Assembly: GCF_022414575.1 (NCBI RefSeq)
Contig: NZ_JADWYQ010000028.1
Location: forward strand, 1 to 64,000
Reading direction: 5' to 3'
Origin: Streptomyces sp. MUM 178J
GTDB taxonomy: Bacteria; Actinomycetota; Actinomycetes; Streptomycetales; Streptomycetaceae
Length of the DNA stretch: 64,000 nt
Part shown: positions 4,026-13,166 of the stretch, in pieces
Layout: every line of letters starts with the position of its first letter
Numbering within the stretch: the first letter of the stretch is position 1
Program-made: the position numbers and the translations under genes
The notes under the pieces: model-generated
The model's database searches: none
Told to the model about the DNA's origin: nothing
Seen by the model: only the letters and a program-made list of their open reading frames with translations

Positions 4026-4376
4026 GCACCGGCCTGCCGCCGCTGGCCGTGGTGATCTGGCCGGAGCCGTCCGACACAGACGCTCAGGACGAGCGGAACG
4101 GGCTGCGCTGGAAGACGCGTGCCCTGGTTGACTGGGCGGGCTGTGAACTGGGCAGGTGAGTCGCGAAGGTGTCCGTGACGCGTTTCCCGCCTCACGCCAC
4201 CGCACTTGATCCGCTCTGTGGCCTGCTCGACGTCCCGGTCGACGCGTCCACGTCTCAGCGAAGCTGCTCCAGCGGCAGCGGCACTCGCCGCCATCAGCCC
4301 TAGATCTTCGAGGATCAAGACGACGGCCGACGAAAGTCACTGGCTTTCTGTGACGTCCAGCGGTGAGACTTCCGAC

Positions 4377-5303
4377 GTGACGCTTCACGAGAAAGAGATC
4401 CCAGTCGATGAAACGCTGGTCCGGACGCTGCTGAAGACACAGCGCCCAGAGTGGGCTGACCGACCGTTGTCGCCCGCAGGCGCTGGTACGGACAACACCA
4501 TGTATCGGCTGGGCGAAGACCTGCTCGTGCGACTTCCACGAACCGCAGACAACGGACACTCCGTGCGCAAGGAACAGGAATGGCTTCCTCGTCTCGCGCC
4601 GCTCCTTTCATGTCCGATTCCCGAGCCCGTCCACTCCGGGACGCCCACCGATGCGTTCCCGCTGGTCTGGTCGGTCTACCGCTGGATTGACGGTGCCGAA
4701 GCCGGCCCGGACACCGTACGGGACTGGGCTGCTTTCGGAGCCGACCTGGCGGCGGTCGTGAGGGAGCTCCACGGCATCGACCTCATGGGAGCGAAGCGCA
4801 CAGACGGCCTCAGCTGGTACCGCGGAGGCAGCCTGAAGCCATGCGACCAGTGGATCAGCAGGTGTCTCGACGAGTGCCGGACCACCGTGGGATCTGAACT
4901 CGACGTCGACACTCTGGAACGGCTATGGCGAGCCGCGCTCGCACTGCCCGAGCCTTCCGGACCTCACGTGTGGCTCCACGGCGACCTGAAGCCGACCAAC
5001 CTCCTGGTCCGGGAAGGCAAGCTTCACGCAGTCATCGACTTCGGCGGACTCTCGGTCGGCTTTCCCGACGCCGAGCACTCCACGCTCTGGGACCTGCCTC
5101 CACAAGCACGGCAGACCTACAGGGACACCTTGAACCTCGACGATTTGACCTGGGCCCGCGCCCGCGCCTGGGCTATCGCGGTGGGCGTCAGTGGAGTCTC
5201 CTACTACTGGCACACCTTCCCCGCCTTCGTCGCCGAATGCCGAGCACGCCTTGATGCAATCCTCACTGACGCATGTACCGGAGGAAATGGAGGCAGTCGG
5301 TAA
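4377..5303 (+). CDS. Aminoglycoside phosphotransferase (APH) family protein
   Basis: A protein of about 308 aa from GTG 4377 (VTLHEKEIPVDETL); GTG 4350 is an alternative. It has the kinase-like APH fold: an N-lobe with AGTDNTMYRLGEDLLVRLPR, the Brenner-type catalytic motif HGDLKPTNLLV (about 4978-5010) and the metal-binding motif IDFGG shortly after. Family members transfer phosphate from ATP to aminoglycosides, macrolides or other small hydroxylated molecules. The chromosomal Streptomyces subgroup with this N-terminus has no substrate I can name, so resistance should not be assumed. An insertion sequence begins 16 bases after the stop codon. Confidence 0.85.
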   Translation: MTLHEKEIPVDETLVRTLLKTQRPEWADRPLSPAGAGTDNTMYRLGEDLLVRLPRTADNGHSVRKEQEWLPRLAPLLSCPIPEPVHSGTPTDAFPLVWSVYRWIDGAEAGPDTVRDWAAFGADLAAVVRELHGIDLMGAKRTDGLSWYRGGSLKPCDQWISRCLDECRTTVGSELDVDTLERLWRAALALPEPSGPHVWLHGDLKPTNLLVREGKLHAVIDFGGLSVGFPDAEHSTLWDLPPQARQTYRDTLNLDDLTWARARAWAIAVGVSGVSYYWHTFPAFVAECRARLDAILTDACTGGNGGSR

Positions 5304-5318
5304 CCGGAACGGGTCGCC

Positions 5319-5333
5319 AGTGAGGTTTTCTCA
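5319..5333 (+). repeat. Left terminal inverted repeat of the IS
   Basis: AGTGAGGTTTTCTCA, perfectly inverted at 6292-6306. Homology continues imperfectly inward toward a shared GTGATC. Confidence 0.85.
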
Positions 5334-5448
5334 GCGAAGTGATCTACATGGAGCGGGTGATCTACCTGTCCCCGGACGGATCGGTCAGGCGGCACCTGGA
5401 TCCGAGCAGACGTAAAGCCCCTGGTAGGACAGGTCTCACCACAAGATC

Positions 5449-6284
5449 ATGTCCGTAGCTACCAGAGGCTTCACGTTGGTCACCTATGTTGCCACGCTCG
5501 ACGTGCCGCGCCACGTCGTCGAGTTCCTCGCGCGACTGCTGGTCGCCCACCGCCGCCGGATCGGCACTCCGAAGGGCTCCCGCGCGCTGGGGCCGTTCCG
5601 GCAGGCGGTTCTGGTGCTGCGCTGGTTCCGTGAGCGCGGCTGCGTGCACTGCCTGGCCCGCGACTTCGGCATCTCGCAGGCCACCGGCTACCGCTACCTG
5701 CACGAAGGCATCGACGTCCTCGCCGACCGGGCCCCCGACCTGCACGAAGTCCTCGCCCGCTGCCGGCACGAGGGCATGACGCACGTCATCCTGGACGGCA
5801 CGCTGATCGAGTCCGACCGCCTCGCGGGCGTTCGCGAGAACGGCAACGACCTGTGGTTCAGCCAGAAGCACAAGGCGTTCGGCGGAAGCATCCAGTTCCT
5901 GTCGGCCCCGGACGGCACCCCGCTGTGGGTCTCCGACGTCGAGCCGGGCTCCACCCCGGACATCACCGCCGCCCGCATCCACGCCCTGCCCGCCCTGTAC
6001 AAGGCGGCGGCACAGGGCCTGCCGACCCTGGCGGACAAGGGCTACATCGGCGCGGGCATCGGCATTCTCATCCCTGTCCGTCGCCAAAGGGCAAGTCAGA
6101 ACAGGCACTTCACGTCGATACGCGCATGTTCAACACCCTGGTGCGGCACGTGCGAGCTCTGGGCGAGCGCACCGCTGCCGAGCTGAAGCAGCGATGGCGG
6201 ACCCTCCAGTACGTCACGCTCAGCCCCAGCCGGATCGGCGACATCGCCCGAGCCGCACTCGTCCTCAACGGAATCTGGAAGTGA
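5449..6284 (+). pseudogene. IS5-family DDE transposase, frameshifted
   Basis: The first frame (5449 to about 6083) carries a helix-turn-helix (CLARDFGISQATGYRYLHEG) and the start of the DDE nuclease: first Asp in ILDGTLIESDR and second Asp in LADKGYIG. After IPVRR, the continuing homology (PKGKSEQALHVDTRMFN, then AELKQRWRTLQ...LSPSRIGDIARAAL) is one base out of frame. The simplest explanation is loss of one C in the run near 6083-6084. In its own frame the protein runs into 34 unrelated residues (stop at 6184-6186) and loses the C-terminal catalytic Glu region, so this copy is probably inactive unless it frameshifts during translation. Confidence 0.8.
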
Positions 6285-6291
6285 TCACCGT

Positions 6292-6306
6292 TGAGAAAAC
6301 CTCACT
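6292..6306 (-). repeat. Right terminal inverted repeat of the IS
   Basis: TGAGAAAACCTCACT, the exact reverse complement of 5319-5333. It lies 7 bases after the transposase stop codon. Confidence 0.85.
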
Positions 6307-6407
6307 CGTCCGCCTCACCACATAGGACACGGTCTAAGTCCCCTGCTCCTGTGAAATCCACGGAGTCATATCTGCGGAATACGAGTTCACCCACCACTCG
6401 ACATTAT

Positions 6408-6437
6408 GAGGGTCCGACACTAGGATGCCGGACCCTC
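6408..6437. terminator. Hairpin between the IS and the RHS immunity gene
   Basis: GAGGGTCCG and CGGACCCTC form a 9-bp perfect stem around a 12-nt loop. It lies 11 bases beyond the end of the minus-strand small membrane protein gene, so it probably ends that transcript; there is only a weak T-tract. Confidence 0.55.
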
Positions 6438-6447
6438 TTATGAGGGC

Positions 6448-6684
6448 CTAGTCAGAGAAATCCCTGGCCAGGCTTCCCATGAAGACTGTGACTGCGGCCA
6501 GAATGGCGGCTTGGAGTGCGCCATCAATCGATTTGGTGGAGAGTACTAGGATTCCTGTGACTGCAACCACGGTAAATCCTACGAGGATTCTCCAGCCGCG
6601 CGGTCGAGACACGTACCATCCTATTAGGCGTCGATAGGTATTCACTGTTGTGCAGCCTATCGGCCTTTTCCGCTCTCCAGCCAT
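6448..6684 (-). CDS. Small two-helix membrane protein, putative immunity protein of the RHS toxin
   Basis: 78 aa, overlapping the 3' end of the RHS gene by 28 bases on the same strand. After a basic N-terminus (about 30 residues) come two hydrophobic segments, ILVGFTVVAVTGILVL and GALQAAILAAVTVFMGSL, joined by a short loop. No family is recognised. Position directly after a variable RHS tip, the overlap, and base composition clearly richer in A/T than nearby genes all fit an immunity gene acquired together with the toxin tip. A membrane antidote suggests the toxin acts at or through the membrane; that is inference. Confidence 0.6.
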   Translation of the reverse strand: MAGERKRPIGCTTVNTYRRLIGWYVSRPRGWRILVGFTVVAVTGILVLSTKSIDGALQAAILAAVTVFMGSLARDFSD

Positions 6685-9600
6685 GCTCGTGTCAGTTCTA
6701 TGGTTGCTCTCTCTATGCGGGTCACGTCAACCTCCAATTCGAGCAGTCTTTCCTGAATGGTGCGCCTGGTTGTCCCATTGGTTTTCTCGGTCAGCCGCCC
6801 GGAGACTGATTTGCCGTTTACCCTACCTGCGAAAAGCAGTTGTGGGCGGCCGGCGCCGGCAACTGCTCCGCTGGCAACACCGACCACGAAGCCTGATACC
6901 TCCCAATTCCTTTTAGGGGTTGTGACTGCGTAGATCGTACCCCCGGTTGCCGCCCCAATAGCTACAGGGCAGGTTACACCAGAGGTGGGGCAGAATCCTG
7001 CGGCAACGAACCCGAGGGCTATCGCTCCAAAGGCAGCGACAGTTCTCTCGTTCTCCTTGAGCCACGTCTTTCCGCGGAATACGCTCGAGGCCTGATCCTG
7101 GCATTCTACAGGATTATTTCCAAGTAGCCCGCAAAGCGTCTTGTATATATGTCCGCTGTCGTCGCTTTCGGCAAATTTCGCTGCCTCGGCGAGAGTGAAG
7201 TTCTTACTTCCCTGGTACCCCATGTCCTGGAACCATCGGTAAGTCTCATCGTCTATCGGCCCGCCAAAATATAGTTCGCTGTCCGCGTTAACCGTCCTTA
7301 CCTGTCCCTTACTCGAGACGGTGGTGTTGCCGCTTGTAGAAGCTGTGCCACTGGTCTGCTTGGAGTTTCCCTTGTTGGACGGAGTGCTTTGCTTGTATGT
7401 GACACCGGGGTTCAGCGGGTAGGAGGGGTCGGGTGTGCCTTCTCTGCCGGATCCGGTGGTTGTGCTCTGGTGGCAGCGGCCGTTGCCTGGGTCCATGCAG
7501 AGGCCCGTGGGGTCGGAGAAGCTGACCGCATTCTGGTTGGCGTAGGCGTAGCCGTTGAGGGATTGGTGCTGTTCCGGGAGGAGAAGCGGGTCGACGCTGA
7601 TGAACTGGCCGATGGTGGGGTCGTATTGGCGGGCGCCGATGTGGGTCAGGCCCGTGGTTTTTCCGGTGGTTTTGCCGAGGAAGCCCTTGTCGTCGGGCCA
7701 GGAGGTGCCGATGGGCTTGCCGCGTTGGGCGCCGAAGGGGGTGGTATGGCGCTTGCTGAAGGTTTGGCCGGTGTCGGCAAAGACCGCCAGGCTTTGGGTG
7801 CCGTGGTGGTCGCCGGCGAGGTAGGTCAGTTTGGGGGTGCCGGTTTCGTTGGAACGGACGGCGACGGCGAGGTCGCCTGAGGTGTAGTAGCGCTGGGCCC
7901 AGGTGGTGCCGTTGGCCTTGAGGTGGAGTTCGGTGGCTCCGGCGTACAGGACGCGTTCGCCGTTCTCCGTGTTGCGGATGAGGAGGGTGCCGTCGGCGTC
8001 GTAGAGGTAGTCGGTGGTGGTGCCGTTCTCGGTGAGCTGGGCCAGTCGGCCGGCCTCGGACCAGGTGAGGTTCTGCTGGGCGCTGGGGCCGGGTCGTTTG
8101 GTGGTGTTGCCGGTGGCGTCGTAGGCGTAGGCGCGCTCAGGGGTGGTGCAGTCGTCTGTGGTACTGGTGCCGCTCAGGGTGTGGGGCTGGGCATCGTTGG
8201 TGTAGCAGTGGGTCGTCTTGGTGGTGCCGGATGGCTTGTGCTGGGTTTCGCTGGTGCGCTGGCCTGCGGTGTTGTAGGTGTAGCTGGTCCAGTAGGGGGC
8301 CGGTCCGGAGAGCTTGTCGGCGCTGCGCGGGTCGGCGCACTTCTGGGAGGCGGGGGTCCAGGCTTCGACGAGGCGGCGGTGGCCGTCGTAGGCGAAGCAC
8401 TGGGTTTCGGGCGCGCTGGCGCCGCCGAGAGTGGTGGGGTCGGCGATGGAGGTGACGTTGCCGACTTGGTCGAAGGTGTAGTTCAGGTCCTGCAGCATGT
8501 ACGGGTGGGTCTGGTCCGTGACGTGACTGCGGGTCAGGCGTCCCGTGCCCTCCTCATAGGTGTTGGTGACGTAGACACGCTTGTGGCCCGACGCGTTGGC
8601 GGTCCCGAGAGCAAGCTGCTGCGGCTGGCCCAGCGCTGAGTAGTCGGCGTCCAGGAGGTAGCCGGTGGTGCCGCCGATCGAAGTCACCTGGCCGAGGTCG
8701 GTGTAGTCGTATTCGATGACTTCCTTGGGCAGGCCGCCGAGAGCCGGTTCCCTGATGTTCTGCAGAGTGCCGTCGATGTTGTAGTAGCTGCTGTACTCAA
8801 GCGTCGAGGGCGTCCCCGCCTTCACCAGCGGATCACTGTCGGGCAGCCGCAGCTCGGTTTCGACGGGGCGGGAGAGGCTGTCGTACTTGGTGACCGCCTT
8901 GGTGTAGGCCTGGCCGTTCTTTCCGCCGATGTATCGGGTGGATGTGGCGGGCTGGCCCTTGAGGATCGTGTCGTAGGTGCGGGCGGTGAGCTGGTTGGCG
9001 TCGGTCTGGGCGCCGTTCCAGGTCCCGGTGGCCCGGCCAAGCTCGTCGTACGCGGTCAGGATCGACTGTCCGCGGGCATCGGTGGCCTTCACCAGCTGGT
9101 CGAGATTGTTGTACGCGCTGGTGGACGTGCCCTTGTCGGGGTCCTTGGCGCTGATCTGCCGGCCGAAGATGTCGTAGCGGTAGGTCCACTTCGCGCCGTC
9201 CGGGCCGGTGATGGACGTCTGCTGGTCGTCGAGTGCGTACGTGAACATCGTTGAGGTGTAAGCGGTGCCGAGGCTTCCGCCCCACTCGGTGTCGGCCGGG
9301 CTGGTGCCTGCGTATTCGCGGGTTTCGACTGTGCGGCCACGGGCGTCGGTGATCGAGCGGGTCGCGGATCCGCCCTCAAGAGCCGTGGCGGCGGTGGAAT
9401 CACCGGTGTACGTGGTCGACGTCGACCACTTCTTCGTGCCGAACACATGGAGCGTGCTGGTGGTGGGGCGGCCCGCGCCGTCGAAGACCGTCTCGGTCTG
9501 GGTCGGGGCTTCGCCGTATTCAGCGCGGGTGTAGGTGCCGTTCGGAGTGCTGGTGGTGTCGAAGATGTCCGCGTACGTCTCGTAGGCCAGGCCGCGGGAG

Positions 9601-12600
9601 TCATAGCGGGTGTCGGTCAGCAGCCGCCCGCCTTGCGGGGTCGGCGACTGGGTCTGCAGCGGACGCAGCAGCGCGTCGTAGATCGTGTACGTGGTGTTGT
9701 ATGTGTCGCCGTCCCTCTTGAGGGTCGAGGTGGCGACCGAGGACGGCTTGGTGTTGGACAGGTTGTAGGTGAAGGTGCTGCTGGGGGCCTGGCTGCTGCG
9801 GATGCGGTTGGGGAGCCAGACCTCGGTCAGCCGACCGAGCGCGTCATACGCCAGCTCCGTCTTCTTCAGATTGATGTCATAGCTGCGCAGCGTCTGGCCG
9901 CGGCGTGGGTCGAGAAAGGCCACGGACCTGTGACCCTTGGCGTTTGTGCTGATGGTCTTGGTCAGTGGACCCGCTTCGGCCGGGGTGTAGGCGGTCGAGG
10001 TGGTGTTGCCCGCGGCGTCGGTGACGGTCAGAGGGCGGCCGAGCGTGTCAAAGGTGGTGGCGGAGGTCTTCTGCCAGGTGGGTGTGCCTGCGGTGTTGTA
10101 GCCCTGGGCGCGGCCGGTCCAGGTGGCCAGTCCGGTCTTGGGCTTCGTCGATGGCGACCAGGCGGCGCCGTCGTAGGCGACGGCGGTGTCGGCCAGGACG
10201 TCGCCGCGGGTTGAGCTGTCGGCCGGGAGGTCGACGTCGGCCTCTGCGACCGAGCACTTCGCTGCCACGGTGCGGGTGCGGGAGGTCAGGCTGGTGATGC
10301 CCTCACCGGGGTTGCGGGCGTACCAGGTGCGGGTGCAGGTCTCGTCGCCGTTCTTGGCGTCGTCGCCGCGGTCTTCGACCTGGTACGGCATGCCGTAGTC
10401 GTCGAAGGAGGTGTCCACCGTCCGTGAGCGCCAGGTCTTGGCTGCGGTGAGGTAGGTGTAGGCGGTGGTCTTCTTGACGCGGGTGTAGCGGGCGATGTGG
10501 TCGCCTGCGTCGGGGGCGCTCTGGCGGGCGGTCTCCTTCGACCACGGCCAGTTCGCCATCGCGTCGATCGGAGTCGAGCCGTTGTAGGTGACCTGTTCGC
10601 GCAGCATGCCCGCGTACTGGTCGTAGTCCGTGATGCCCTCGATGCCGATGCTTGGCGACGTCAGCGGGGCGACCGTGACCGTCTTGGTGGTGCCGTCCTT
10701 GTTCTTGTCGCCGTGCATGCCCTGCAGATAGAGCGAGACGGTCTTTGAACGGGGAGTGTCTTTCGCCCCGCTGTAGACGCTGACCTGGCGGTATCCGCGC
10801 CAGTCGGACCAGGTCCGCTCGTCCTTAGGCGTCAGCGGATCGTCGTTGTAGTGCCAGGCCGCGCCGCTGTACGCGTACTCGTGCTCCACGGCGTCGTTGT
10901 GACCGGCCGGGTCCGAGACCACCACGGCCAGCACCCGGTACTTGTGGAACCAGTCCACCGACGCGGTGTCGCTGCCGTTGATGTTCCAGTACTGCGGATA
11001 GCACGAGCGGGTGTTGGTGTCCTGGGCCGCGCCGAGGACCTCGCTGCGGCGGCACTCCGGCGACGACAGCGTGACCGTGGTGATCGCGCCGGTCTCCGAG
11101 GTGATGGTGGAGATGCGCGGGCGCGTCAGCGGCAGGATGTCATCGGTGGCGTCGACCCGGTTCGGCCGCATCTGATACGTGAACGACAGCGGATTCAGCC
11201 CAATGCCCGTGCCCGCCTTGCCGGTCCTCTTGACCGACTTCAGCGTCAGGACATGGTCGGAGGTGTCGCCGATGTCACCGCCGTCCAGATACTGCTGCTC
11301 CAGCTTCCACGAGTCCACCGGATCGTAGGCGCCGGTTCCGGCGTTGTACGAGTGGGTGTGGACGTCTGTGAGGCGCTTGCGTGTGAAGAACGATGCGCCA
11401 GCCGCATTGCACTCGTCGTCGTCCTTGGAGCAGATCGCATCGAAGGGGACGTCGGGCCAGTTGTCGGCGGTGTCCTTGGTGAGTTCCTTGCAGTCGGCGG
11501 CGGTGCAGCGCTCGGCGTAGCCGAAGGTCACCTTCGCGTCGGCGTCGTCGGTGAACAGCGCGCCCTTGCGCAGACCGTACTTGATCTCCTTCAGGTAGCC
11601 GCCGCGGGTGTAGAGGGCGCTTGCCTTGGCGGCCTTGTTCTTCTTGTAGTAGTTGGTCTCCTTTGCGTACCAGTAGGTGGCGGCGTTGCCGCGGGTGTCG
11701 ACGACGTAGTCGAGGTTCCACCGCCAGGCCTGATTCAGCGACCGGTCCGCGAACGTGCCGCCCTTGGAGTAGCCGGGCTCGCCGGAGTCGTCGCCGAAGA
11801 CCGGGAGCGTCCAGGTCGAGTTGGTGCGCTGGGTGGCAGCCCCGTCCAGCTTGTCGAGGCCGAAGACGTACCTGGTGCCGTCGCCGGTCACCACGGTCCA
11901 GTACTCGCCGTCGTCGTCGCCGTTGGCCGCCCCGGTGGAGCGGATCACCTTCGAGGCGTCGTCACCCTGCAGCCGCCACTGACCGGAGTCTTTGTCCTTG
12001 ACCAGGCGGCTTGACGTTCCGTTGAGGACGAGGCGGGCGTTGTCATACGTCCAGCAGCGGTCGAAGACGTCCTTGTGGCCGTCCTCGTCACAGCTGCCGT
12101 AGGCCCGCTCGATGTACGACTCGGTCAGGGAGAAGCCCTCGCCGACCGCCGTGCCCTGGTTGTTGGTCGTCGCGGTGCGGCCGTCGATGCTCCCCGAGTC
12201 ATACGACAGCGACAGACTCGGCGTGGGCCCGGCCGCCGCGGGCGGCACGGTGAAGTCGTACGACCAGGTGAAGGAGCCCGAACTGCCGCCCGCCTCCCAC
12301 GACGAGGACGCGGACAGCTCCGTCGCCGAGTAGTCACCCGAGCCGTTCGCCGACTCTCCGCCACCCGCGGAGGCGGCCGTCAGGGCCAGTACGGTGGCTC
12401 CGGCGGTGCTGCCGCTGCGGGCGAGCTGCGTCGACAGGCCGCCGCCAGACTTCGCCAGCGTCACCTGGGAGGTGACGGTCTGCTCGCCAAGGTCGTTGTC
12501 GGAGGCAAGAGGGGTCTGCTTGCGGCACTCGGCCTTCTCAGGTGTCGTCACCGCACAGGCAGGAAGCTGCACCAGACGGAGACGCTGCGACCAACTGCCG

Positions 12601-13166
12601 CCGACCGCTGAAGCGAAGCCGCTGTAGTCCACGCTCACCTCGGCCTCGCCGCCGGCGTCCGACTGGGCGGTGAGCAGCACACCGGTGACGCCGAGGCGCT
12701 TCGCCGCCTCCTGGTCCAGCACGGTCAGGTGGGCTGTCCCGGCCGTCGCAGACCTGGTCGACTTGTCCGCGCGGGGGCTGACCGTCATCGGAACACCACC
12801 CGGCGAGGCCGTCCCCGGCTTTGCGCCGTCGAGCTTCACCGTCGCAGCGCCTTGCTTCGGCCATGAGCCCTGCTGCTCCTGCCGTGCGAGCCGGGCCTGC
12901 TCGGCATTGGTCTTACGGTCCCGGGCGACCTTCTCGCGGGCCTTCTTCGCGCCAAGGCCCTTGACAGCCTCGACCTTGCTTACCCGCTGCTCGGGAAGAT
13001 CTGGTTTCCCGAGGCCCACCGGTACTGCTTCTGCTACTGAGGCGGGTGCCAGCCCTAATGGAAGGACCAGTGAGAACGCCACCGACCGCAACAACAGCCG
13101 GCTGTCCCAGTGGTTCGCTGTGCTCTGACGGCGTCCTCGTCTTGATCTGCCTATGCCAAGTCTCAT
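6657..13166 (-). CDS. RHS/YD-repeat secreted polymorphic toxin
   Basis: 2169 aa. It starts with an export signal (basic segment, then LLLRSVAFSLVLPLGLAPASVAEA). Residues about 295-370 resemble the SpvB/insecticidal-toxin-type module (GSFTWSYDFTVPPAAAGPTPSLSLSYDSG is split here: GSFTWSYDF, then PSLSLSYDSGSIDG). Many YD repeats follow (YDALGRL, YDIFGRQ, YDELGRA, YDATGN), then the RHS core at about 1780-1883 ending FSDPTGL, the usual junction to a variable tip. The 285-residue tip has Ser/Thr/Gly-rich linker sequence, a hydrophobic stretch at about 2042-2085 and a charged C-terminus. Established: RHS cores encapsulate a C-terminal toxin (WapA-like in Gram-positives). The tip itself matches nothing I recognise, and its DNA is AT-richer than the core, suggesting module exchange. 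Confidence 0.88.
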   Translation of the reverse strand: MRLGIGRSRRGRRQSTANHWDSRLLLRSVAFSLVLPLGLAPASVAEAVPVGLGKPDLPEQRVSKVEAVKGLGAKKAREKVARDRKTNAEQARLARQEQQGSWPKQGAATVKLDGAKPGTASPGGVPMTVSPRADKSTRSATAGTAHLTVLDQEAAKRLGVTGVLLTAQSDAGGEAEVSVDYSGFASAVGGSWSQRLRLVQLPACAVTTPEKAECRKQTPLASDNDLGEQTVTSQVTLAKSGGGLSTQLARSGSTAGATVLALTAASAGGGESANGSGDYSATELSASSSWEAGGSSGSFTWSYDFTVPPAAAGPTPSLSLSYDSGSIDGRTATTNNQGTAVGEGFSLTESYIERAYGSCDEDGHKDVFDRCWTYDNARLVLNGTSSRLVKDKDSGQWRLQGDDASKVIRSTGAANGDDDGEYWTVVTGDGTRYVFGLDKLDGAATQRTNSTWTLPVFGDDSGEPGYSKGGTFADRSLNQAWRWNLDYVVDTRGNAATYWYAKETNYYKKNKAAKASALYTRGGYLKEIKYGLRKGALFTDDADAKVTFGYAERCTAADCKELTKDTADNWPDVPFDAICSKDDDECNAAGASFFTRKRLTDVHTHSYNAGTGAYDPVDSWKLEQQYLDGGDIGDTSDHVLTLKSVKRTGKAGTGIGLNPLSFTYQMRPNRVDATDDILPLTRPRISTITSETGAITTVTLSSPECRRSEVLGAAQDTNTRSCYPQYWNINGSDTASVDWFHKYRVLAVVVSDPAGHNDAVEHEYAYSGAAWHYNDDPLTPKDERTWSDWRGYRQVSVYSGAKDTPRSKTVSLYLQGMHGDKNKDGTTKTVTVAPLTSPSIGIEGITDYDQYAGMLREQVTYNGSTPIDAMANWPWSKETARQSAPDAGDHIARYTRVKKTTAYTYLTAAKTWRSRTVDTSFDDYGMPYQVEDRGDDAKNGDETCTRTWYARNPGEGITSLTSRTRTVAAKCSVAEADVDLPADSSTRGDVLADTAVAYDGAAWSPSTKPKTGLATWTGRAQGYNTAGTPTWQKTSATTFDTLGRPLTVTDAAGNTTSTAYTPAEAGPLTKTISTNAKGHRSVAFLDPRRGQTLRSYDINLKKTELAYDALGRLTEVWLPNRIRSSQAPSSTFTYNLSNTKPSSVATSTLKRDGDTYNTTYTIYDALLRPLQTQSPTPQGGRLLTDTRYDSRGLAYETYADIFDTTSTPNGTYTRAEYGEAPTQTETVFDGAGRPTTSTLHVFGTKKWSTSTTYTGDSTAATALEGGSATRSITDARGRTVETREYAGTSPADTEWGGSLGTAYTSTMFTYALDDQQTSITGPDGAKWTYRYDIFGRQISAKDPDKGTSTSAYNNLDQLVKATDARGQSILTAYDELGRATGTWNGAQTDANQLTARTYDTILKGQPATSTRYIGGKNGQAYTKAVTKYDSLSRPVETELRLPDSDPLVKAGTPSTLEYSSYYNIDGTLQNIREPALGGLPKEVIEYDYTDLGQVTSIGGTTGYLLDADYSALGQPQQLALGTANASGHKRVYVTNTYEEGTGRLTRSHVTDQTHPYMLQDLNYTFDQVGNVTSIADPTTLGGASAPETQCFAYDGHRRLVEAWTPASQKCADPRSADKLSGPAPYWTSYTYNTAGQRTSETQHKPSGTTKTTHCYTNDAQPHTLSGTSTTDDCTTPERAYAYDATGNTTKRPGPSAQQNLTWSEAGRLAQLTENGTTTDYLYDADGTLLIRNTENGERVLYAGATELHLKANGTTWAQRYYTSGDLAVAVRSNETGTPKLTYLAGDHHGTQSLAVFADTGQTFSKRHTTPFGAQRGKPIGTSWPDDKGFLGKTTGKTTGLTHIGARQYDPTIGQFISVDPLLLPEQHQSLNGYAYANQNAVSFSDPTGLCMDPGNGRCHQSTTTGSGREGTPDPSYPLNPGVTYKQSTPSNKGNSKQTSGTASTSGNTTVSSKGQVRTVNADSELYFGGPIDDETYRWFQDMGYQGSKNFTLAEAAKFAESDDSGHIYKTLCGLLGNNPVECQDQASSVFRGKTWLKENERTVAAFGAIALGFVAAGFCPTSGVTCPVAIGAATGGTIYAVTTPKRNWEVSGFVVGVASGAVAGAGRPQLLFAGRVNGKSVSGRLTEKTNGTTRRTIQERLLELEVDVTRIERATIELTRAWLESGKGR

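Follow-up and report, generated by a model that had tools for sequence, protein, structure and literature searches.

A candidate membrane-acting tip and its probable two-helix immunity partner at the end of a Streptomyces RHS gene

INTRODUCTION

What is encoded at the A/T-richer end of a long RHS gene in Streptomyces sp. MUM 178J, and does the small gene that follows it belong to the same unit? The gene lies in a stretch of 64,000 nucleotides of contig NZ_JADWYQ010000028.1, called the window here in the sense of the whole stretch that was analyzed. A type VI effector of a Gram-negative bacterium already provides one example of a membrane-depolarizing RHS tip paired with an immunity protein of two transmembrane segments. 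Among the matches listed from the open-licence literature, none described a tip of this kind in the RHS proteins of Streptomyces.

RESULTS

An RHS protein with an exchangeable end

The RHS gene occupies positions 6657 to 13166 on the minus strand and encodes a protein of 2,169 amino acids. A Pfam scan of the whole protein returned RHS_repeat matches, with FAM194 and SpvB below the cut-off, and the NCBIfam model Rhs_assc_core (TIGR03696) covers residues 1809 to 1889. By eye, the N-terminus carries a signal-like hydrophobic stretch; no type VI secretion or PAAR-type N-terminus was found in the protein, and the scaffold that bears the tip is RHS, a CdiA scaffold being absent. The core ends at an FSDPTGL junction (7500 to 7520, minus strand), so that RHS/YD repeats, an RHS-associated core and a DPxGL-type junction, the marks of RHS polymorphic toxins, are all found in one protein.

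The initial annotation had described the sequence as richer in A/T from about 7400 down to 6450, past FSDPTGL, and the measurements bear this out. The GC content falls from 0.671 in the RHS body to 0.571 in the tip (7499 to 6660) and 0.540 in the small gene, with the drop starting at about 7400, and third-position GC falls from 0.888 to 0.618 and then 0.554. Sliding windows likewise excluded a uniform composition through the RHS gene, as 97 windows within the RHS body had a mean GC of 0.673 and none lay below 0.653. The feature from 6448 to 7299 (852 bp) has a GC content of 0.555, equal to the minimum of the windows sampled across the 64 kb (fraction equally low, 0.0016). When plasmids were searched by tblastn with the 290-amino-acid tip stretch, alignments in 7 records were confined to residues 2 to 40 and consisted of RHS-core ends only; ordinary RHS homology therefore ends near 7410, about 30 residues past FSDPTGL and approximately where the composition changes. 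The stop in plasmid RHS homology, the composition break and the differing modules found behind one front domain (described below) characterize an exchangeable tip.

Anatomy of the tip

Behind the junction, a low-complexity linker (7272 to 7499, minus strand, as are all parts of the tip) leads from the core to the tip domains. It is followed by a front domain with entry- or pretoxin-like character (7098 to 7271), delimited by alignments, shuffle tests and hhalign and marked by the motif GYxGSxxFTxxEAAxF and two conserved cysteines. Next comes a hydrophobic Gly/Ala-rich module (6846 to 7043) with two to three possible membrane helices, recognized from its KD profile and from shuffles. A C-terminal helix with the pattern ERxxELExxVTxxExxxxxLxR (6675 to 6755), identified in alignments and predicted as helical in a low-confidence model, closes the tip. 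The hydrophobic stretch that had been noticed in the tip is real, with KD peaks of 1.84 (residues 97 to 115) and 1.30 (residues 118 to 136) in the 224-amino-acid tip. An AlphaFold model of the tip, built from a two-row alignment, reached a pLDDT of 40.6 and was unusable.

The hydrophobic module holds GFVVGVASGAVAG, a four-glycine zipper that was reached by 56 of 2,000 shuffles. The zipper was rejected as a mark of the family, as the four-glycine run occurs in the window only and the runs of the relatives are within lengths frequent among shuffles.

No Pfam, NCBIfam or PHROG model matched the tip at an E value of 1 or below, and no Pfam or NCBIfam family was found for the front domain. Profiles of the tip and of the small protein matched no PDB sequence at the same limit, in a PDB copy that may lack the full Tse5 chain; with the single tip sequence, two PDB matches were obtained at E values of 0.29 and 0.36. 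The tip of one relative touched a PTS model (E = 0.0088). The earlier statement that the tip matches nothing known thus stands as regards Pfam, NCBIfam, PHROG and PDB families, but the tip is not unique: it recurs at full length at one locus (L008) and in diverged form at two others (L009 and L011).

Relatives are few

A single-sequence query of a genus sample was positive in 2 of 392 genomes, namely the source genome itself and genome G276 (locus L003). With a two-row alignment, one locus emerged from 78 pattern matches, L008 of Streptomyces alkaliterrae, which aligns along the whole tip of the window at 37% identity, the C-terminal helix included. In the family sample, 7 of 394 genomes were positive (own, L009, L010, L011, L012, L013 and L014); a four-row profile run on a genus sample detected 4 of 333 (own, L003, L012 and L017). 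Six of 220 genomes were positive in the order sample (own, L003, L009, L012, L026 and L025, the last a near copy of L017), and 3 of 346 in the phylum sample at E ≤ 0.01 (own and two frames containing stops). The genus, family, order and phylum samples overlap, and their counts cannot be summed; with so few positive genomes in each, the tip is rare. Further scans yielded no relatives: the single tip was run against genome contigs, the small protein as well as two tip alignments against viral contigs, the tip against phages, and the window DNA as well as the individual tips of L008, L009, L017, L012 and L011 against plasmids.

Several matches were discarded as relatives. L005 and L006 are frames that contain stops, L014 and L026 are not RHS, L028 is an internal RHS stretch, and a Thioclava match had an E value of 0.9. 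L007 (E = 0.38) was also set aside; its gene is presumably AhpD-like.

One front domain precedes differing modules

The front domain is common to nine distinct loci (the window, L003, L008, L009, L010, L011, L012, L013 and L017). In comparisons against block shuffles, with the cuts between front domain and remainder placed by hand, all 36 pairs of front domains scored z values of at least 3.3, and 6 of the 36 pairs passed z 2.5 in the rest of the tip. Three of these six involve the window, paired with L008 (8.3), L011 (5.8) and L009 (4.8); the others are L009-L012 (3.4), L008-L013 (3.0) and L008-L011 (2.8). The grouping of the rest modules is not clean, since L009-L012 and L008-L013 pass while L008-L009 and L009-L011 remain below z 2.5.

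The tip of L010 runs on into PT-HINT plus an LHH nuclease, and that of L013 into PT-HINT. When the four-row tip profile was compared with these two by hhalign, the alignment was restricted to the front domain in L013 and covered the front domain plus part of the hydrophobic stretch in L010. As the front domain precedes differing modules, with L010 and L013 aligned mainly there, it behaves as a reusable module, for which we infer an entry or pretoxin role. Its occurrence in both the HINT/LHH tip and the HINT tip parallels the shared entry domains of contact-dependent inhibition (CDI) ionophores. At L003 (2155 to 3309), a front-domain tip has a different C-terminus, and a long opposite-strand ORF converges on the tip.

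These comparisons bear on which part of the tip would be toxic. An unlikely reading is that the hydrophobic module is a translocation helix only and that the toxin is the last 35 to 65 residues, comprising the C-terminal helix, with the membrane or something else as target. In L010 and L013 a hydrophobic stretch lies between the front domain and HINT, in L010 thus also upstream of the nuclease, so delivery is one role open to such a stretch; the glycine zipper of Tde1 is reported to function in delivery (PMC10240207). The C-terminal helix is moreover conserved among the aligned tips in the window and L008 and partly in L011. Yet it is absent from L009, L012 and L017, which still have membrane-type ORFs downstream. 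Only about 30 residues (L009) and 20 residues (L017) follow the hydrophobic module, too few for a separate enzyme, and two-peak ORFs follow in both; the simplest account is therefore that the hydrophobic module itself would be the toxin.

Instead of forming a pore or serving as an ionophore, the tip might be an enzyme active in or at the membrane, with lipids or cell-wall precursors among its conceivable substrates, and the neighboring gene would still be its immunity gene. Membrane proteins can in principle protect against membrane-acting enzymes too, and two cysteines and other residues of the front domain, whose role is putative, are invariant across six aligned tips. No enzyme family was matched, however, and a HINT/LHH nuclease tip carries the same front domain, which speaks against that domain as the catalytic part. 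We consider an enzymatic tip quite improbable and retain the hydrophobic module as the candidate toxin.

The small gene and its surroundings

The initial annotation listed a 78-amino-acid membrane protein that overlaps the RHS gene by 28 bp. This ORF exists as listed (6448 to 6684, minus strand, ATG start), but the overlap is probably an artifact of the start codon. The GTG at 6645 corresponds to residue 14 of the 78-amino-acid ORF, and the GTG start of the L008 relative corresponds to residue 18 of the 78, which makes GTG 6645 likelier than ATG 6684. Upstream of both starts the match to a ribosome-binding site is unconvincing (3 and 4 of 6 positions), and the GTG start is therefore one that we infer. 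The comparison suggests a gene from 6448 to 6645 on the minus strand that encodes 65 amino acids and begins 11 nt after the RHS stop, free of overlap.

The predicted product is a small two-helix membrane protein, and its gene is a probable immunity gene. Two KD peaks are present, as in the two-transmembrane immunity proteins of Tse5 type, and an AlphaFold model from a two-row alignment (pLDDT 74) places helices at residues 2 to 12, 16 to 36 and 42 to 64, that is, a helix followed by a two-helix hairpin. Pfam, NCBIfam and PHROG gave only weak matches, below the cut-off where one exists; the weak Pfam matches to DUF2374 and Gly_transporter were rejected on that ground. In a search of 145 genus genomes, the small-protein profile found only the copy of the window at E ≤ 0.001; four more hits at 0.006 to 0.009 were short stretches of larger frames, one with an internal stop. 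A small protein conserved apart from RHS tips was thus not seen in the 144 genus genomes beyond the source genome.

An inverted repeat just after the small gene (6405 to 6440, minus strand; 15-nt arms, 87% complementary, 6-nt loop) is a possible transcript end, and no T-run terminator was found after the gene. An IS element lies just past the small gene at 5319 to 6306, with 18-nt inverted ends (94% complementary) and a DDE_Tnp_4 transposase whose frame looks interrupted by eye; its one match in its own genome is itself. Beyond it, positions 4206 to 5303 encode an APH-family phosphotransferase (PF01636, E = 1.7e-31) in opposite orientation to the RHS gene.

The pair recurs

Co-occurrence of the two parts was examined in other genomes. 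A small membrane ORF follows the related hydrophobic module in 4 of 4 loci (the window, L008, L009 and L011), with lengths of 65 (or 78), 55, 93 and 72 amino acids, respectively; the core claim of pairing is thus based on four genomes. In L008, a 55-amino-acid ORF with a GTG start lies 34 nt after the RHS stop, with 13 of 28 aligned columns identical to the small protein of the window and an E value of 4e-5 in a single comparison. Against block shuffles, the small proteins scored z values of 6.6 (window-L008), 6.5 (L008-L009) and 3.4 (L008-L011). Direct likeness was lacking for window-L009 (0.3), window-L011 (0.6) and L009-L011 (-0.5), and the four would form one weak family, joined only through L008. 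As putative cognate immunity genes they co-occur with the tips and are weakly alike.

Other loci have other neighbors. The partners of L017 and L025 have 96 amino acids, two peaks and a third-position GC of 0.81, which is a coding signal; that of L017 is unlike the small proteins of the window family. With their near-identical tip and partner, L017 and L025 would provide a further membrane cassette attached to this front domain. L012 has a 184-amino-acid partner with three peaks. When compared with the small protein, the neighbors of L012 and L017 scored like shuffles. L010 is followed by an SMI1/KNR4-type (SUKH) protein (SUKH_5, E = 4.8e-13) and L013 by a protein with a DUF4288 match below the cut-off, and at L003 none of the ORFs downstream showed a membrane peak. 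The small-protein (A6) profile was run over seven genomes, those of L017 and L025 being left out; 3 of the 7 were positive, by construction its own members, and the genomes of L003, L010, L012 and L013 gave no match up to an E value of 0.1.

A partner was defined as a same-strand ORF of at least 50 amino acids that starts between -60 and +200 nt from the RHS stop and has at least one KD peak of 1.6. Counting KD peaks of at least 1.6, L008 and L011 have one, the window, L009 and L017 two, and L012 three. The SUKH neighbor of L010 also has one (1.62), so that one peak alone discriminates poorly; the neighbor of L013 has none. The controls came from 124 plasmid records that matched RHS; 16 of them were hand-picked from H9 to H31, seven being skipped. 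Under the one-peak rule, a membrane-type ORF followed 6 of 6 hydrophobic-ending tips compared with 4 of 16 controls (L034, L036, L040 and L043; P = 0.003); the 6 of 6 omits L025, a near copy of L017 that also has a two-peak ORF, and L003, where the tip lacks a hydrophobic peak. L034, with one peak in a long ORF, is the extra locus relative to a count on annotated genes (ORFs where none was near), which gave 3 of 16 controls (P = 0.001). Under a two-peak rule the comparison was 4 of 6 with 3 of 16 (P = 0.054), and both HINT tips, L010 and L013, failed this rule.

Hydrophobic peaks were also present in the control tips L036, L043 and L044. The neighbor of L044 is a DUF4265 protein that does not have two peaks, and those of L036 and L043 have two. 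In L036, positions 4830 to 5051 encode a 73-amino-acid hypothetical protein with two membrane peaks behind a hydrophobic RHS tip, and in L043 an 84-amino-acid two-peak ORF (4978 to 5232), missing from the gene table, lies in the same position. Both are further candidates for membrane-acting tips of other families. Behind the S. alkaliterrae pair in L008 (6482 to 8340), two ORFs appear lipoprotein-like by eye, with no Pfam match at E ≤ 0.01, and a fragment resembling the RHS body of that locus lies between them; the two ORFs are possibly immunity genes that have been displaced, and the fragment possibly a relic of an old RHS gene.

The recurrence of the pair is also what weighs on a reading in which the tip is a decayed cassette that has lost its original toxin, and the small ORF an incidental membrane protein or no gene. 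The rarity of the tip in the single-sequence search and the IS element directly downstream are in keeping with decay, as are the codon-position GC values of the window small ORF (0.585, 0.492 and 0.554), which carry no coding signal. Against it, the whole tip including its end recurs with a similar small ORF in S. alkaliterrae and in diverged form in L009 and L011, the RHS reading frame is uninterrupted across 2,169 codons, and the IS element is positioned beyond the small ORF. Decay therefore seems to us very unlikely. The proposal of a swapped toxin/immunity cassette in the initial annotation gains from the composition break, from the front domain shared by nine loci with differing modules and from the membrane proteins paired with 4 of 4 related modules. 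We regard a real toxin/immunity cassette as highly probable on this sequence evidence.

DISCUSSION

The membrane character of both the tip end and its partner leads us to favor, with reasonable though far from full confidence, a cassette whose terminal module would insert into the target membrane and depolarize it and whose two-helix membrane protein would neutralize it. In such a mechanism, the RHS protein would be exported, and its core would cleave off the C-terminal tip after PTGL, as the motif suggests. The front domain, which elsewhere is joined to other C-terminal modules, would handle delivery or entry. The terminal hydrophobic module would then enter the cytoplasmic membrane of a neighboring cell and conduct ions or disrupt the membrane, so that the membrane potential would collapse; in the membrane of the producer, the two-helix protein would block the inserted toxin.

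The nearest known system by analogy is Tse5 of Pseudomonas aeruginosa. As far as the cited extracts go, a 149-residue C-terminal fragment of this RHS protein, freed by the aspartyl protease within its core, enters the cytoplasmic membrane, depolarizes it and forms channels, and its immunity protein Tsi5 has two predicted transmembrane regions (PMC9637101, PMC10684867). The window cassette shares with Tse5/Tsi5 the RHS carrier, an apparently membrane-type tip end and a predicted two-helix partner. Tse5, however, is described there as a type VI effector of a Gram-negative, and its N-terminus is PAAR-like, whereas that of the window RHS protein is signal-like.

CDI ionophores, in the part of the account drawn on here, combine an entry domain with a terminal ionophore domain; some of the entry domains also occur with nuclease toxins, and the CdiI immunity proteins are predicted two-helix hairpins of 72 to 100 residues (PMC11630599). 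The front domain of the window likewise also occurs before a nuclease tip, and a two-helix partner follows. In contrast, the CDI ionophores described in that source have a CdiA scaffold, belong to Gram-negatives and are predicted five-helix bundles; the window tip has an RHS scaffold, and its model is too poor for a five-helix bundle to be judged. The window cassette would thus resemble Tse5/Tsi5 and the CDI ionophores in its mode of action, with no sequence relationship detected.

Among Gram-positive secreted toxins, TelE and EsxX have a glycine-zipper C-terminus that damages or depolarizes membranes (PMC10434224, PMC12744356). From the portions of these papers used, EsxX immunity factors include membrane proteins (PMC12744356), and TelE is neutralized by a protein that has no transmembrane domain (PMC10434224). 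Their carriers are LXG/T7SS proteins, unlike that of the window, and a strict glycine zipper is not kept in the window tip family. The polymorphic toxin survey lists Tox-WTIP, a small toxin domain of two membrane helices that is predicted to form pores, and Imm-CdiI, a class of immunity proteins with two transmembrane segments (PMC3482391). The signatures of Tox-WTIP, RxxR in helix 1 and W-[ST]IP in helix 2, are absent, by eye, from the hydrophobic module of the window.

A broader hypothesis, which we put forward tentatively and at slightly less than even confidence, is that a single new entry domain (GYxGS/two-Cys) brings HINT-processed nucleases into the cytoplasm in some tips and terminal ionophore modules into the membrane in others, each with matching immunity. 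The tips would then form an undescribed class in streptomycete RHS proteins and an independently evolved equivalent, on RHS proteins of Gram-positives, of the CDI system of entry domains and ionophores. Small partner genes such as that in L043, missing from the gene table, are easily overlooked or given a wrong start codon. The front domain, found before a nuclease tip as well as before putative membrane modules, may offer a handle on how such tips cross the Gram-positive envelope.
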